Part shown: positions 4,621 to 9,753 of the stretch, piece after piece
How the letters are laid out: the number at the start of each line of letters is the position of its first letter
Numbering within the stretch: position 1 is the first letter of the stretch
Assembly (NCBI GenBank): GCA_030690245.1
Contig: JAUYGW010000129.1
Coordinates: 1-10,843, forward strand
Source: Gallionella sp.
GTDB lineage: Bacteria; Pseudomonadota; Gammaproteobacteria; Burkholderiales; Gallionellaceae
Direction of reading: 5' to 3'
DNA length: 10,843 nt
The notes under the pieces: model-generated
Told to the model about the DNA's origin: nothing
The model's database searches: none
The model's input: only the letters and a program-made list of their open reading frames with translations
Made by a program: the position numbers and the translations under genes

Positions 4621-4722
4621 GTCATTCTCCCGAATAAAAAGTTGCAAATAAACACATCCCTTCCTTTATGAGCCGATAAATATCTCATGTTTTGATGCTA
4701 TGAATTTATCAGAAATTCTTCT

Positions 4723-4785
4723 GTACGCTGGCGTACATACCGCATGGCATATTTCCTATCGTACTGCTCACGGTACGCTGTACCG
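4723..4785. promoter_or_regulatory. Cluster of GTAC dyads upstream of the small RHH-like gene
   Basis: Two perfect dyads occur: GTACGC-TG-GCGTAC (4723-4736) and CGGTAC-GCT-GTACCG (4771-4785). Between them, CGTAC at about 4760 can pair with GTACG at about 4774. GTACGCTG is a direct repeat at 4723 and 4774. The cluster lies in the 173-base gap between the small gene and the 3' end of the NIF3 gene. It has no T-run, so it is not a convincing terminator. An operator for the small gene is possible but unproven. Confidence 0.4.
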
Positions 4786-4793
4786 ACAGGTTG

Positions 4794-5540
4794 CTAGACT
4801 GGATTGTCCTGATCGAAGAAGCAGTGCTCCAGGCCGAAGTGCGCCGACAAGTGTTCGCCCAGCGCCTGTATGCCCAGCCGCTCGGTGGCATGGTGGCCGG
4901 CGGCGATGAAGGCCACGCCGCTTTCCTGCGCGAGATGGAAACTCTGCTCGGAAATCTCTCCGCTGATAAAAACATCCGCGCCCTGCGCGATGGCCGCCTC
5001 AAAATAGCCCTGCGCCCCGCCGCTACACCACGCGACTTTCCGGATATTCTTGGCGCCATTCCCGATAACTTGCGGGACGCGCTGCAGGCCTTGTCCGACC
5101 TGCGCGGCAAATTGCGCGAGCATCTGCGGGGCCGCCAGCTCGCCGAGGCACGCGATGCCCTGCTCGCCGAACCGGCTCTGCTCCGCCAGCCCGAGCAATT
5201 TGCCGAGCCGCGCGTTGTTGCCCAGCTCGGGATGCGCATCGAGCGGCAGGTGATAAGCCAGCAGGCTCACGTCATGGCGCAGCAATTCGGCGATGCGCCG
5301 TTTCTTGATGCCGGTTATCGCGGCATCCTCGTTGCGCCAGAAATAGCCGTGATGCACCAGGATCGCATCCGCACCCCATGCGATCGCGGCATCCAGCACC
5401 TGTTGCGAAGCCGTCACGCCGGTGGCGATGCGCCGCACTTCCGTGCGCCCTTCCACCTGCAAACCGTTCGGGCAGTAATCCTTGAACAAAGTAGTTTGCA
5501 GCAGGCTTGCGTTATAATCGCGCAATTCATTGAGCAGCAT
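4794..5540 (-). CDS. ybgI: NIF3/YbgI-family dinuclear metal-centre protein
   Basis: Member of the NIF3/DUF34 family, ring-shaped hexamers with a two-metal site per subunit. E. coli YbgI is the close relative; its exact reaction is unsettled and the old 'GTP cyclohydrolase I type 2' label is doubtful. The start at 5540 gives 248 aa, matching YbgI length, with AAAGG upstream; the ATG at 5564 would add eight unsupported residues. All metal ligands expected from YbgI are visible: His63-His64 in LVHHGYFW, Asp101 in LPLDAHPELGNNARLG, His216 and Glu220 in AAGHHATERLG. Also present are NGLQVEG (25-31) and WCSGGAQGYF (171-180). It is transcribed divergently from the DegS-like gene. Its start lies about 50 bases from the inverted repeat at 5589-5724, so its promoter is close to or inside that element. 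Confidence 0.95.
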   Translation of the reverse strand: MLLNELRDYNASLLQTTLFKDYCPNGLQVEGRTEVRRIATGVTASQQVLDAAIAWGADAILVHHGYFWRNEDAAITGIKKRRIAELLRHDVSLLAYHLPLDAHPELGNNARLGKLLGLAEQSRFGEQGIACLGELAAPQMLAQFAAQVGQGLQRVPQVIGNGAKNIRKVAWCSGGAQGYFEAAIAQGADVFISGEISEQSFHLAQESGVAFIAAGHHATERLGIQALGEHLSAHFGLEHCFFDQDNPV

Positions 5541-5588
5541 GTAAGCACCTTTAATTTCAAGCATATCGATTAACCTATAAAAAGCAGT

Positions 5589-5724
5589 TTAGCCACGGAT
5601 TAACACAGATGAACACGGATTACCAATGGGTTAGTTTTCTTATTCATACCACCTTTCGGGTGAATGAGAGATTTTCAACAACTATTTGTTTTATCAGTGG
5701 TAATCCGTGTATATCCGTGGCTAA
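5589..5724. repeat. Inverted repeat with CACGGAT/CACAGAT arms and 69-base loop core
   Basis: The left arm from 5589 begins TTAGCCACGGAT and has three heptamer units at about 10-base spacing. The right arm 5697-5724 reads on the opposite strand as TTAGCCACGGAT, then a second CACGGAT and TTACCAC; it has one unit fewer. Between the arms, 5624-5692 is a 69-base core that starts CAATGGG, ends TGTTTT and has a central CACC-5 nt-GGTG hairpin, matching the core of the repeat at 6985-7112. It occupies most of the divergent gap between ybgI and the DegS-like gene. Confidence 0.88.
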
Positions 5725-5750
5725 TCGCCGCTTTTAGGATTAATCATACC

Positions 5751-6905
5751 ATGCGTAAATACTGGCTTTTATTCACCCAGACCGTCACTGTCGCGCTGGC
5801 GTTGCTGTTTATCGTCCAGACCCTCAAGCCGGAATTGCTGCCGAATGCGGCGCGCAGCGGAGTGGTCACGCTGCAGGAAAGCGCGCCGCAGGTGGCGGAT
5901 GGAAAAAACCTAGCCATGGGCTTAAGCGCCGCCGCGCAGAAAGCCATGCCCAGCGTGGTGAACATCTTCACCAGCATCGTCATCAAGACGCCGCTCCATC
6001 CATTCATGGAAGACCCGCGTTTCCGCTTTTTCTTCGGCGATCCGCGCGATATGGAACCGCAAAGCAGCTCCAGCCTGGGCTCCGGCGTGATCGTCAGCCC
6101 CGACGGCTACATCCTCACCAACCACCATGTCGTTGAGGCGGCCGACCAGATCGAAGTCGCGTTGGCGGACGGGCGCAAGACCAGGGCGCATGTGATCGGC
6201 TCGGACCCGGAGACCGACCTCGCCGTCATCAAGGTCGAACTGCCCGGCAGCCTTCCCGCCATCACCTTCGGCCACCCGGAGCGGGCGCAGGTGGGGGACA
6301 TGGTGCTCGCGATCGGCAACCCGTTCGGCGTGGGGCAGACCGTGACCATGGGCATCATCAGCGCGCTCAAGCGCAGCCATCTGGGGTTGAACACCTTCGA
6401 GAGCTTCATCCAGACCGATGCCGCGATCAACCCCGGCAATTCCGGCGGCGCGCTGGTGGACGTGAACGGCAACCTGATCGGCATCAACAGCGCGATTTAT
6501 TCGCCGAATGGCGGCTCGCTCGGCATCGGTTTCGCCATTCCCGCCAGCATCGCCAAAAAAACCATGGAGCAGATCATCCAGAGCGGCTCCGTGACGCGCG
6601 GCTGGATCGGCGCGGGGGTGCAGGAACTGACTCCGGAACTGGCCGAATCTTTCAAGCTGGGCAGCACCAAGGGTGTGCTGATCACCGAAATCATACGCAA
6701 CAGCCCGGCGGAACAGGCAGGCATCAAGACCGGCGATATCCTGATTGCGATAGACGATCAAACCATCGACGACTGGGACACAATGCTGGAAACCGTGGCC
6801 AACCTGCCGCCCGGCAAAGTTATCACGGCCAGGCTGATGCGCAACGGAACAGTGACAAGTTTGCCGGTTAAAATCGGCAAGCGGCCAAAACCGAGGGAGC
6901 AGTAG
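5751..6905 (+). CDS. degS: DegS/HtrA-type membrane-anchored periplasmic serine protease
   Basis: S1C (HtrA) serine endopeptidase of the periplasm. One N-terminal membrane anchor (about residues 4-23, no signal cleavage motif) and a single C-terminal PDZ domain (about 283-376) make it DegS/AlgW-like rather than DegP, which has two PDZ domains. It has 384 aa, slightly longer than E. coli DegS (~355). The catalytic triad is complete: His126 in LTNHHVVEA, Asp156 in DPETDLAVIKV, Ser231 in NPGNSGGALVD. In relatives, DegS cuts the anti-sigma factor RseA when its PDZ binds misfolded porin tails; no rseA or rpoE is in this window, so that role is inference. I used ATG 5751 because the upstream extension (to 5664) is translated repeat sequence. 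The ribosome site is weak (AGGAT). It converges with tatC and is followed by a hairpin terminator. Confidence 0.94.
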   Translation: MRKYWLLFTQTVTVALALLFIVQTLKPELLPNAARSGVVTLQESAPQVADGKNLAMGLSAAAQKAMPSVVNIFTSIVIKTPLHPFMEDPRFRFFFGDPRDMEPQSSSSLGSGVIVSPDGYILTNHHVVEAADQIEVALADGRKTRAHVIGSDPETDLAVIKVELPGSLPAITFGHPERAQVGDMVLAIGNPFGVGQTVTMGIISALKRSHLGLNTFESFIQTDAAINPGNSGGALVDVNGNLIGINSAIYSPNGGSLGIGFAIPASIAKKTMEQIIQSGSVTRGWIGAGVQELTPELAESFKLGSTKGVLITEIIRNSPAEQAGIKTGDILIAIDDQTIDDWDTMLETVANLPPGKVITARLMRNGTVTSLPVKIGKRPKPREQ

Positions 6906-6936
6906 CCGCATGGCAAGCCGTCCAACGCACCAAATG

Positions 6937-6963
6937 AAAGAGCCGCATTAGCGGCTCTTTATC
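6937..6963. terminator. Hairpin terminator after the DegS-like gene
   Basis: A perfect 10-pair stem AAAGAGCCGC (6937-6946) / GCGGCTCTTT (6951-6960) with loop ATTA. The trailing T-run is only the stem's TTT plus AT, so it is moderate. The structure is symmetric and may also stop transcription arriving from tatC on the other strand. Confidence 0.8.
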
Positions 6964-6984
6964 CTTAAACCTAAAAAACGCAAC

Positions 6985-7112
6985 TCACCACGAAGAACAC
7001 ACACGAAGATTTTTCAATGGGCTATGTGCGACTGAACGCTCACCCATGTGGTGTCTGGTGTTTTTGTGACAACCAACTGTTTTCTTCACGTCCTTCGTGT
7101 TCTTCGTGGTGA
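6985..7112. repeat. Inverted repeat with CACGAAG arms and 69-base loop core
   Basis: The outermost 16 bases (6985-7000, TCACCACGAAGAACAC) are perfectly repeated in inverse at 7097-7112, with further CACGAAG-like units inside both arms. The core 7015-7083 is 69 bases, starts CAATGGG, ends TGTTTT, and has central CACC-CATGT-GGTG. It fills the gap between the convergent DegS-like and tatC genes. The remaining bases 7113-7149 show nothing further. Confidence 0.88.
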
Positions 7113-7149
7113 AGTGCTTTTCTCAGGTTTATTCTTTGCGCTATTGTTT

Positions 7150-7878
7150 TTACGTCGGCTTGGTCTTCCCCTTGACCATCCAGCTCGCAACCACGATACC
7201 GGCTTCATAGAGCAGCCACAGCGGGATCGCCAGCATGAATTGCGACACCACGTCCGGCGGGGTGAAAATCGCGCCGAGGACGAATGCGCCGACGATCACG
7301 TAGGAACGGATTTCCCTCAGCTTCTCGACGCCGACGATACCCATGCGCACCAGCAGCACGACCGCCACCGGCACCTGAAAGGTGACCCCGAACGCCACGA
7401 ACATGCCGAGCACGAAGCTGAGGTATTTGTCGATATCGGTCATCACCGCCACGCCCTCCGGCGCGGAGGCGGTGATGAAGCCGAACACCACAGGGAACAC
7501 CGCTAAGTAGGCGAACGCCATGCCGCAGAAAAACAGCAGCGTGCTGGCGACGATGAGCGGCACGACGAGGCGCTTCTCGTGCGCATACAGGCCGGGGGCG
7601 ACGAAGCGCCATACGTGATAAAGAATGTATGGCAGTGCAATCAGTAAAGCGGCCATCATCGCGACCTTGAGCGGCACGAAGAACGGTGTGGTGACATCGG
7701 TGGCGATCATCTGCCCGCCTTTGGGCAGCTTCGCCAGCAGCGGCTGCGCCAGCAGGGCATAGAGGTCGGAGGCCCAAGGGAACAGGCAGATGAACACCAG
7801 CAGCAAGGCCACGGCAACATGCAGCAAGCGGGTGCGCAGTTCGATCAGGTGCGCGACAAAGCTTTCACTGATACCCAT
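7150..7878 (-). CDS. tatC: Sec-independent (Tat) translocase subunit TatC
   Basis: Six-helix inner-membrane receptor of the twin-arginine translocase; it binds the RR signal peptide together with TatB and exports folded proteins such as Rieske and other cofactor proteins. It has 242 aa, normal length. Conserved sites are visible: FVAHLIELRTRLL with Glu13 (equivalent of the E. coli N-terminal signal-binding Glu), YAHEKR with Glu101 in the first cytoplasmic loop, and FTPPDVVSQ with Asp209. Six hydrophobic segments are evident. The start ATG (7878-7876) overlaps the tatB stop by one base (TAATG). There is no clear ribosome site, so translation is probably coupled to tatB. It is the last gene of the his-HIT-tat run. 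Confidence 0.97.
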   Translation of the reverse strand: MGISESFVAHLIELRTRLLHVAVALLLVFICLFPWASDLYALLAQPLLAKLPKGGQMIATDVTTPFFVPLKVAMMAALLIALPYILYHVWRFVAPGLYAHEKRLVVPLIVASTLLFFCGMAFAYLAVFPVVFGFITASAPEGVAVMTDIDKYLSFVLGMFVAFGVTFQVPVAVVLLVRMGIVGVEKLREIRSYVIVGAFVLGAIFTPPDVVSQFMLAIPLWLLYEAGIVVASWMVKGKTKPT

Positions 7879-8477: not shown

Positions 8478-8825
8478 TTAACCGCGCCGCACCATGGGCG
8501 GAATGATGCCGCCGCCGATGATGTGGATATGAAAATGAAACACTTCCTGCCCGCCGCCCTTGCCGGTGTTGATCACGGTGCGGAAGCCGTTTTCCAGCCC
8601 CTGTTCTTTCGCCAGCCTGGGCGCCAGCAGCAGCATCTTACCAAGCAAGGCGGCGTGCGTATCTTCGGCTTCCGCCAGCGAAGCCAGATGCAGCTTTGGG
8701 ATCAGCATGAAATGCACCGGCGCAACCGGATTGATGTCGTGGAACGCCAGCACCTCGTCGTCTTCGTACACCTTGCTGCAAGGAATCTCGCCGCGTGCAA
8801 TCCTGCAAAAAATACAGTCGGTCAT
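8478..8825 (-). CDS. hinT: HIT-family (HinT-like) nucleotide hydrolase/phosphoramidase
   Basis: Histidine-triad hydrolase; HinT relatives cleave AMP-lysine and other nucleoside phosphoramidates in the cytoplasm. It has 115 aa. The triad is HFHIHII at residues 97-103 with the nucleophile expected at His99. The N-terminal [12 protein letters not shown] and the central [17 protein letters not shown] are typical of HinT. The C-terminus [12 protein letters not shown] is slightly unusual compared with the commoner WPPG ending. TAGGAG precedes the ATG. It sits between hisE and tatA, a neighbour relation I recall in other Betaproteobacteria; why it belongs with histidine genes is not known to me. Confidence 0.94.
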
Positions 8826-8842
8826 TTATGCTCCTAAAACCT

Positions 8843-8920
8843 AACCCCTCCCCAGCCCTCCCCTTGTCAGGGGAGGGAGCCGCGTTCTCCTCCCCTGACA
8901 AGGGGAGGCTGGGAGGGGTT
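8843..8920. repeat. GC-rich nested palindrome between hisE and the HIT gene
   Basis: The left arm (about 8843-8875) and right arm (about 8889-8920) are inverse copies of a CCCCTCCC-AGCC-TCCCC pattern, differing by two extra C in the left. Each arm also carries its own palindrome (CCCCTTGTCAGGGG / CCCCTGACAAGGGG), so a long stem or two separate hairpins can form. It fills essentially the whole hisE-HIT gap and abuts the hisE stop codon. It could act as a transcript stabiliser or partial terminator. Its base composition and units differ from the CACRRAK repeats. Confidence 0.88.
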
Positions 8921-9237
8921 TATTTACGGCTTTCCTTTTCGGCGATGCCCGACAAGCCTTCGCGGCGCGCCAGTTCGTTCAGCACATCATCCGCGCTCAG
9001 GCCTTGTTTTGCCAGCAGCACCATGCAATGAAACCACAAATCGGCAATTTCATACACCAGATGTGTTTTGTCGCCCCCCTTGCTCGCCAGAATCACCTCG
9101 GTCGCTTCCTCGCCGATTTTCTTCAATATCGCGTCTTCGCCCTTGCTGAAAAGTTTGGCGACATAAGAGCTTTCCGGCGCTGCCTGCCGGCGCGCCTCCA
9201 GCGTTTCCGTCAATCGTTGCAAAATATCCTGATTCAT
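8920..9237 (-). CDS. hisE: Phosphoribosyl-ATP pyrophosphatase
   Basis: Second step of histidine biosynthesis: hydrolyses phosphoribosyl-ATP to phosphoribosyl-AMP and pyrophosphate. It has 105 aa and an all-alpha MazG-like fold. The metal-binding pattern is visible as GEEATEV (Glu44, Glu47) and YEIADLWFH (Glu63, Asp66). The family-typical N-terminal [23 protein letters not shown] is intact. Start 9237 matches usual HisE N-termini; the ATG at 9267 would add [10 protein letters not shown] inside hisI. There is no strong ribosome site, and the hisI stop lies 10 bases upstream. It is separate from hisI here, unlike the HisIE fusion of enteric bacteria. Confidence 0.95.
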
Positions 9238-9637: not shown

Positions 9638-9651
9638 TCAAACCCCCATTC

Positions 9652-9739
9652 AGCCACAGAGTACACAGAGACCACAGAGAAAACCACCAGCACTTCGACT
9701 CAACAGATACTCTCTGTGACCTCTGTGTTCTCTGTGGCT
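9652..9739. repeat. Inverted repeat of CACAGAG heptamers inside the his operon
   Basis: Arms 9652-9680 and 9711-9739 (29 bases each) match at 26 of 29 positions by hand count, with three CACAGAG-type units per arm at about 9-base period. The loop is 30 bases (9681-9710). The termini read AGCCACAGAG on both sides, with TTTAGCCAC on the hisF side, resembling the TTAGCCAC ends of the 5589-5724 repeat. It lies in the 116-base hisF-hisI gap and is transcribed with the operon. Confidence 0.9.
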
Positions 9740-9753
9740 AAACGATTTCAAGT

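Follow-up and report, generated by a model that had tools for sequence, protein, structure and literature searches.

Bacterial MITEs (non-autonomous mini-transposons) are short and gene-free, with inverted ends, target duplications, many copies, and empty sites. ISEcp1, a member of the IS1380 family, produces 5-bp target duplications (PMC2887853). A MITE with a tandem repeat inside, BrickBuilt, has been described in Porphyromonas gingivalis (PMC4596501); its repeats are 23 bp long and have no spacers, and an inverted pair of heptamer arms is not mentioned in the abstract. Multicopy palindromes are also represented by GTAG REPs and REPINs, with REP dimers inside longer palindromes and GTAG/CGTC repeats on record (PMC3733652). 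TIMEs (PMC4133298) and the MITEs of Thiomargarita (PMC4853749) are among the closest elements in the literature. A term search of a 2024 review of prokaryotic MITEs (PMC10969869) gave no occurrence of IS1380, ISEcp1, tandem repeat, 5-bp, Methylo, or heptamer. A published name or description of the heptamer repeats analyzed here was not found in the open-licence literature searched by sequence strings, family, and habitat.

We analyzed the window, the whole stretch of 10,843 nucleotides (contig C274) from a 2.34 Mb draft genome of Gallionella sp. (82.5% complete, 357 contigs). Two elements of the window, E2 and E3, are with a probability of about 0.78 two copies of one MITE family, moved now or formerly by an IS1380-type DDE transposase in trans, with cores alike by descent and with replaced arm blocks. 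They have the features of bacterial MITEs listed above, but their arms are class-specific tandem heptamers, exchangeable within one frame. The 5-bp duplication and an end sequence common with IS1380-type copies of the genus link them to the IS1380 family; unlike its members, E2 and E3 carry no gene, and neither heptamer arms nor the core were present in the IS1380 ends examined. In contrast to GTAG REPs and REPINs, the ends of E2 and E3 have no GTAG tag, their family has target duplications, and no link to RAYT (REP-associated tyrosine transposase) was seen; the likeness lies in GTAG-like palindromes within some elements of the same frame.

Each element consists of a terminal repeat (CCTaAAAACcGCAGTTA), CAC-type heptamer arms, and a core; the terminal repeat outside the arms is about 19 bases long, reads CCTaAAAACcGCAGTTAGC or a variant of it, and starts with CCT. 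E2 (5574–5738, 165 bp, CACGGAT arm class) is located between nif3 and htrA and is enclosed by two copies of ATTAA (5569–5573 and 5739–5743, forward strand). Its left terminal repeat, CCTATAAAAAGCAGTTTAGC (5574–5593, forward strand), matches the family consensus, and the right one (5720–5738, reverse strand) reads CCTAAAAGCGGCGATTAGC in reverse. The left arm (5594–5620, forward strand) is composed of the units CACGGAT, CACAGAT, and CACGGAT at 5594, 5604, and 5614, with a period of 10; the right arm (5693–5719, reverse strand) has the same period, units at 5703–5709 and 5713–5719, and an innermost unit, CACTGAT, read from the sequence. The core (5624–5692, forward strand) contains a mini-hairpin at 5650–5662. 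Genome G021 of the same genus, 93–94% identical there, reads AAGCATATCGATTAATCATATC at this site, which is the window minus E2 and one ATTAA, so that a single ATTAA copy is left in the empty site. Of the 29 loci of relatives, 13 were aligned at the nif3–htrA junction, and E2 was missing from all 13. The right end of E2 (TTTTAGGATTAATCATACC, 5728–5751) lies directly 5′ of the htrA start codon and may provide a Shine–Dalgarno-like AGGA for htrA. A frame of at least 60 aa beginning within E2 (5664) runs on into htrA, out of the element.

E3 (6970–7127, 158 bp, CACGAAG arm class) is located between htrA and tatC and is missing in genomes G021 and G018. Its flanks, TTAAA and TTTAT, form no exact duplication. 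The left arm (6989–7008, forward strand) is irregular, with CACGAAG at 6989 and 7002, 13 bases apart, and the right arm (7084–7108, reverse strand) has CACGAAG at 7093–7099 and 7102–7108 and a degenerate innermost unit, again read from the sequence; the core occupies 7015–7083 (forward strand), with a mini-hairpin at 7041–7053. E3-like copies were found at seven further places of the own genome (88–93% identity over at least 129 query bases), along with one partial copy at 96%, and exact 5-bp duplications surround four E3-like copies (L002, L005, L006, and L007). A frame of at least 60 aa that begins within E3 (7048) runs out of the element.

According to the preliminary description, both cores are 69 bases long, start with CAATGGG, end with TGTTTT, share a central CACC-5 nt-GGTG, agree ungapped at about 36 of 69 positions by hand count, and are flanked by different heptamers (CACGGAT versus CACGAAG). 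Coordinates and lengths were exact, the central motif was located at the two mini-hairpins given above, the recount gave exactly 36/69, and the arms do differ; the marked extent was incomplete, with the outer terminal repeats of E2 and E3 sitting beyond the arms. The comparison with shuffled loops favored relatedness: letter shuffles gave a mean identity of 18.4, and only 1 in 100,000 reached 36 or more. The conspicuous ends account for much of this: after trimming 7 bases from the start and 6 from the finish, the identity was 23/56, equaled by 771 of 100,000 shuffles. The likeness of the two cores is therefore real but moderate, and their equal length is partly a consequence of picking identical end words.

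Related cores are present in several arm classes. We aligned cores of other classes with a panel of 14 CACGGAT-class cores and compared the scores with those of 300 shuffles; the 15 chosen cores comprised 9 of the 21 own CACGAAG, 4 of the 7 CACAGAG, and 2 of the 5 CGCAGAT cores of G021. The E3 core (z 5.0, above 300/300 shuffles), L065 (1/300 shuffles as good), and L012 (4/300) clearly had a core in common with CACGGAT elements, as did a CGCAGAT-armed element of G021 (z 8.0, 0/300). Borderline values were obtained for L070 (11/300), L026, and the second CGCAGAT element (14/300 each). L003, with 30/300 shuffles scoring as well, was not counted as above shuffles, and for the remaining seven tested cores, E4 included, 49 to 140 of 300 shuffles were as good; among the nine tested own CACGAAG cores, L003, L010, L014, L019, L021, and L025 did not exceed shuffles, and L026 was weak. 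Further copies with unrelated loops, which the preliminary description regarded as contrary to its view, thus exist in part: several CACGAAG cores and the E4 core were not above shuffles, while E3 and L012 clearly were. A first rough score against one reference core was low for 83 of 126 elements. Among Gallionellaceae and Methylococcaceae, elements of the CACGGAT class again contain the CACC-loop-GGTG motif with flanking CAATG and GTTG words.

The preliminary description suggested a "functional or ancestral core". Several observations would agree with a structured RNA, regulatory or small, or with a bidirectional terminator, whose hairpin core is under selection and whose copies spread incidentally: E2 and E3, taken as single strands, gave better folds than shuffled sequences (z −6.8 and −5.2), the mini-hairpin stem is more conserved than the rest of the core (0.87 vs. 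0.71), and CAYY-loop-RRTG was counted in 49 of 126 elements, whereas shuffled cores averaged 4.7. We regard this explanation as improbable; a functional RNA core is unsupported because its pairing does not covary. In 23 aligned elements including E2, the named pairs covaried no more than shuffled ones (both sides changed in 7 cells vs. 4.9 ± 2.1; score 0.065 vs. 0.066). Out of 92 mini-hairpin cells, 18 were unpaired, 3 had a change in one partner, and 1 had changes in both partners, and RNAalifold, run on 23 CACGGAT-type sequences, gave one double change in 24 pairs. Arm partners were likewise unmatched within elements. Rfam returned nothing on E2 and E3; its eight matches elsewhere in the window were all to microRNA or snoRNA models, far below gathering scores. 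Terminator-like or promoter-like sites were not found in 5500–7200. What holds of the earlier proposal is its ancestral half: the cores are related, and one transposon family accounts for both the cores and the arm switch. We infer that the cores of E2 and E3 are alike through descent from one ancestral element and not through the upkeep of a hairpin RNA.

At least 65 distinct paired-arm elements, none overlapping or contained in another, were found in the own draft genome after merging identical arm-to-arm sequences: 37 with mostly CACRGAT, 21 with mostly CACGAAG, and 7 with mostly CACAGAG units. A generic pattern matched further own copies on contigs outside this set. The end pattern, with up to two mismatches, had 48 matches in the own genome versus 1 for the reversed pattern. 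Target duplications were 5 bp long and followed W-T-N-A-W. The flanks were long enough in 67 elements (59 own and 8 from G018, G021, and G032). An exact 5-mer duplication was found at the best offset in 24 of them, whereas a control that paired flanks of different elements averaged 4.6 (maximum 9 in 200), and 14 had one at end offsets 19/20; 43 elements of this genus set were without an exact duplication. A scan of named genomes gave 78 matches and 53 elements with both ends in view, 28 of which had an exact duplication, whereas the control averaged 2.9 (maximum 9 in 500); the second base was T and the fourth base A in all 28.

Empty sites were searched for by comparing 59 own elements with about 0.8 Mb of G021, where both flanks were collinear for 15. 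A gap of 4–6 bases was left at the clean empty site of E2 and likewise for L025 and L035_321. The target was intact with extra bases nearby for L045 and L056 (gaps of 18 and 28), gaps of 10–13 bases were found for E3, L003, and L047, and the other seven sites held 41–158 bases of other or unalignable sequence. The family combines the features that define MITEs (terminal inverted repeats, a target duplication, short length without coding capacity, and insertion polymorphism between relatives), and the ends, target duplications, and empty sites settle E2 and E3 as members of a transposon family.

An IS1380-type transposase is the likely mobiliser, since IS1380-type transposons of the genus have the same end sequence. 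An IS1380-type transposase gene of genome G023 (PF13701) is flanked by the ends CCTTAAAACCGCAGTTAACCC and CCTAAAAACCGCAGTTACCC, and the first 17 bases of the latter recur without mismatch at the ends of MITEs, both of the own genome and of G021. When a 22-base MITE end was scanned in 17 transposase loci, four (L133, L148, L149, and L239) matched at 18–20 positions; a 19-position match in L240 was a heptamer MITE beside a transposase fragment, and the other 12 loci matched at 13–16. In 30 comparison loci, the values were 12–15 for 29, and 18 for L085, which is the own E2 locus. Locus L237, from a Methylococcaceae genome rich in elements, had CCTAAAAAAATCAGTTGA at both ends, identical over 16 bases to MITE ends of a Methylobacter record (L175, L222), and L239, an IS1380-type copy in a Methylococcaceae genome with MITEs, had a close end variant, with one end found. 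The proteins of L237 and L239 were 43–44% identical to that of G023.

Transposases with PF13701 were found in 9 of 41 genomes searched, 7 of them over the cut-off, and in a second search in 6 of 61 genomes, all of the same genus. The L133 transposase passed PF13701 and PF01609; its best NCBIfam match was IS1380, at 129 bits versus a cut-off of 180, and the protein of genome G020 scored 140 bits. The flanks of the G023 copies (ATCAC/ATCAT and ATCAT/TTAAA) showed an imperfect duplication or none, and the L237 ends were flanked by ATAAA and ATCAA. A well-bounded IS1380-type copy in G020 had the duplication TTTAT and a different end (CCTATTTTCCTCAGTT). Two IS1380-type copies on G023 contig C105 (L133 and L139) are in opposite orientation with about 440 bases between their 5′ ends, and ATCAT lies to the left of one copy and to the right of the other; the pair looks like a composite transposon.

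It is also conceivable, if unlikely, that the MITEs are as described and were moved by another DDE transposase that coincidentally shares CCT ends and 5-bp duplications. An IS1380-type transposase was not found in the element carriers G021, G018, and G032 or in the own genome (82.5% complete draft in 357 contigs), and when autonomous copies were sought there and in G021 with the end pattern, the frames of L304, L320, and L321, read by eye, showed no transposase. Heptamers were absent from the IS1380 ends examined, and 5-bp target duplications are produced by several transposon families. They are described for Tn3 (PMC2887853). Against a coincidence stand the 17 contiguous end bases identical between the G023 transposon and the MITEs of the own genome and G021, and the close end variants of IS1380-type copies in two Methylococcaceae genomes with MITEs (both ends of L237, the one end found of L239).

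REP/REPIN elements moved by RAYT would fit two observations: the own genome has five Y1-type transposase matches, and GTAG-like palindromes lie within some elements of the same end-frame. This is the least probable of the explanations considered: the family has 5-bp duplications and outer inverted ends, which are not expected from single-strand Y1 transposition. Paired heptamer arms or core words were not found near the five Y1-type loci, two of which had one isolated heptamer match each, and the RAYT link was rejected.

The spacing of neighboring units in the own genome was 9 in 59/60 cases for CACGAAG, 10 in 129/130 for CACRGAT, and 9 in 23/23 for CACAGAG; that of CGCAGAT in G021 was mixed (9 in 10/13, 10 in 3/13). 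Conservation in 23 aligned elements was 0.94 for heptamer units, 0.68 for spacers, 0.77 for the outer repeat, and 0.73 for the core. In 57 elements with 3 + 3 units, the variable left and right positions matched no more within than between elements. Position 4 of unit 1 was an exception (0.79 vs. 0.70, P 0.019, weak and from a mixed set) that was gone in 32 own elements, and at inner variable arm positions the within-element match was below expectation. Units are thus conserved while their left and right partners are unmatched within elements, which argues that arm sequence and spacing are kept and pairing is not. The heptamer units may be protein-binding iterons.

Different palindromic modules occur within the same ends. 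In about 780 kb of G021, 18 paired-arm elements were found: 8 CACGAAG, 5 CGCAGAT, 3 CACGGAT, and 2 CACAGAG. The end-pattern search gave 30 loci with 15 end-bounded elements, 11 of which had exact 5-bp duplications; left out were two chance pairs of 62 bases within the IS1380 copies, a composite formed by two neighbors, and one duplicate place. In 11 of the 15, other palindromes were present instead of paired heptamer arms, and 7 of these 11 had exact duplications. Some armless elements contain GTAG-like palindromes (GTAGGTGCGAATTCATTCGCAC, GTAGGAGCGCGCC, and GTAGGAGCGGGCC), and L296, L297, L298, and L318, also armless, retain the CACC-loop-GGTG core. With four heptamer classes and other palindromes occurring within the same ends, a mosaic interior is set in a constant outer frame. 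Another arm class was found at or near the same place of G021 for 2 of the 15 collinear sites (L034_1509 and L076) and for E1; both edges of L034_1509 lie no more than a few bases from those of the G021 element. Different arm classes could come to one site by exchange in place or by repeated insertion.

Two arrangements were observed apart from these counts. In L309 (genome G000, contig C123), an element with GTAG-like palindromes abuts a CGCAGAT-armed element with a common ATGAA between them, and in a Sideroxydans record (L170, from 4211 onward) a CACGGAT-armed element has another palindromic repeat (GTAGGGTGGATAAGCGCAGCGCATCCACC) in its middle, a case of nesting.

For the family as a whole, the IS1380-type DDE transposase would act, now or in the past, in trans on the terminal repeat; the cores of E2 and E3 would have been inherited from one ancestral element; the heptamers would be retained for their iteron-like sequence, spaced in a class-specific way, and not for pairing; and arm blocks would be replaced as wholes between elements through recombination or nesting. 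A broader view, which we put forward tentatively and hold to be rather doubtful, is that one frame with IS1380-type ends and a WTNAW target is a carrier of exchangeable palindromic cassettes (four heptamer classes with spacing 9 or 10, and REP-type palindromes), in which the arrays would be class-specific protein-binding iterons and the cassettes would be swapped, sometimes at the same site in sister species, in a system common to several phyla.

Two other elements with heptamer arms were found in the window. E1 (2131–2216, CACGAAG arms) overlaps the start of a gene for an outer-membrane efflux protein (PF02321); a clear outer repeat or duplication was not seen. An in-frame ATG at 2172 falls within E1, and the right arm of E1 encodes the charged start (MRWKYLRALRVLRG...) of an apparent lipoprotein signal peptide. 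At the same place, G021 has another palindromic element, with CGCAGAT arms, also in frame ahead of the signal. E4 (9649–9742, CACAGAG arms) lies between hisF and hisI and has a degenerate outer repeat and no duplication, and its core was unrelated to those of E2 and E3 in the alignment-versus-shuffle test; E4 is missing in G021, where another palindromic repeat occupies the place. An inverted repeat at 8821–8922, whose 20-base arms (CCTCCCCTTGTCAGGGGAGG) are perfect, is perhaps another mobile palindrome; G021 lacks it and has about 16 bases at this place. Seven collinear blocks of 91–94% identity join G021 to the window, and G021 is without E1 to E4 and without the 8821–8922 repeat; the only other unaligned gap of the window is 4648–4793.

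In the species genome collection, 77 stretches contain the exact pattern CCTNAAAANNNNNNTTAGCCACNGATNNNCAC (21 fixed bases); the record titles include Ferrigenium, Sideroxydans, Gallionella, Sulfuricella, Nitrosomonadales, Methylobacter, other Methylococcaceae, Thermodesulfovibrionia, Nitrospira, Deltaproteobacteria, and Bryobacterales. The frame is present again in Methylococcaceae, Nitrospirota, and other groups. These records are draft metagenome-assembled genomes, and misbinned contigs are therefore possible in single cases. In a phylum sample, the generic end-plus-heptamer pattern was found in 2 of 398 genomes, one of them the own genome.

E2 and E3 are thus ordinary in kind, as MITEs, and unusual in build, with arms that are exchangeable and possibly iteron-like, set in a frame of IS1380 type that occurs in several phyla. 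Heptamer palindromes for which we found no published name gain an identity as mobile DNA together with a testable mobiliser. The regular heptamer spacing without a pairing constraint points to a putative DNA-binding partner. If the arms are exchangeable cassettes, they would offer small transposons a route to alter their interior and yet stay mobile.
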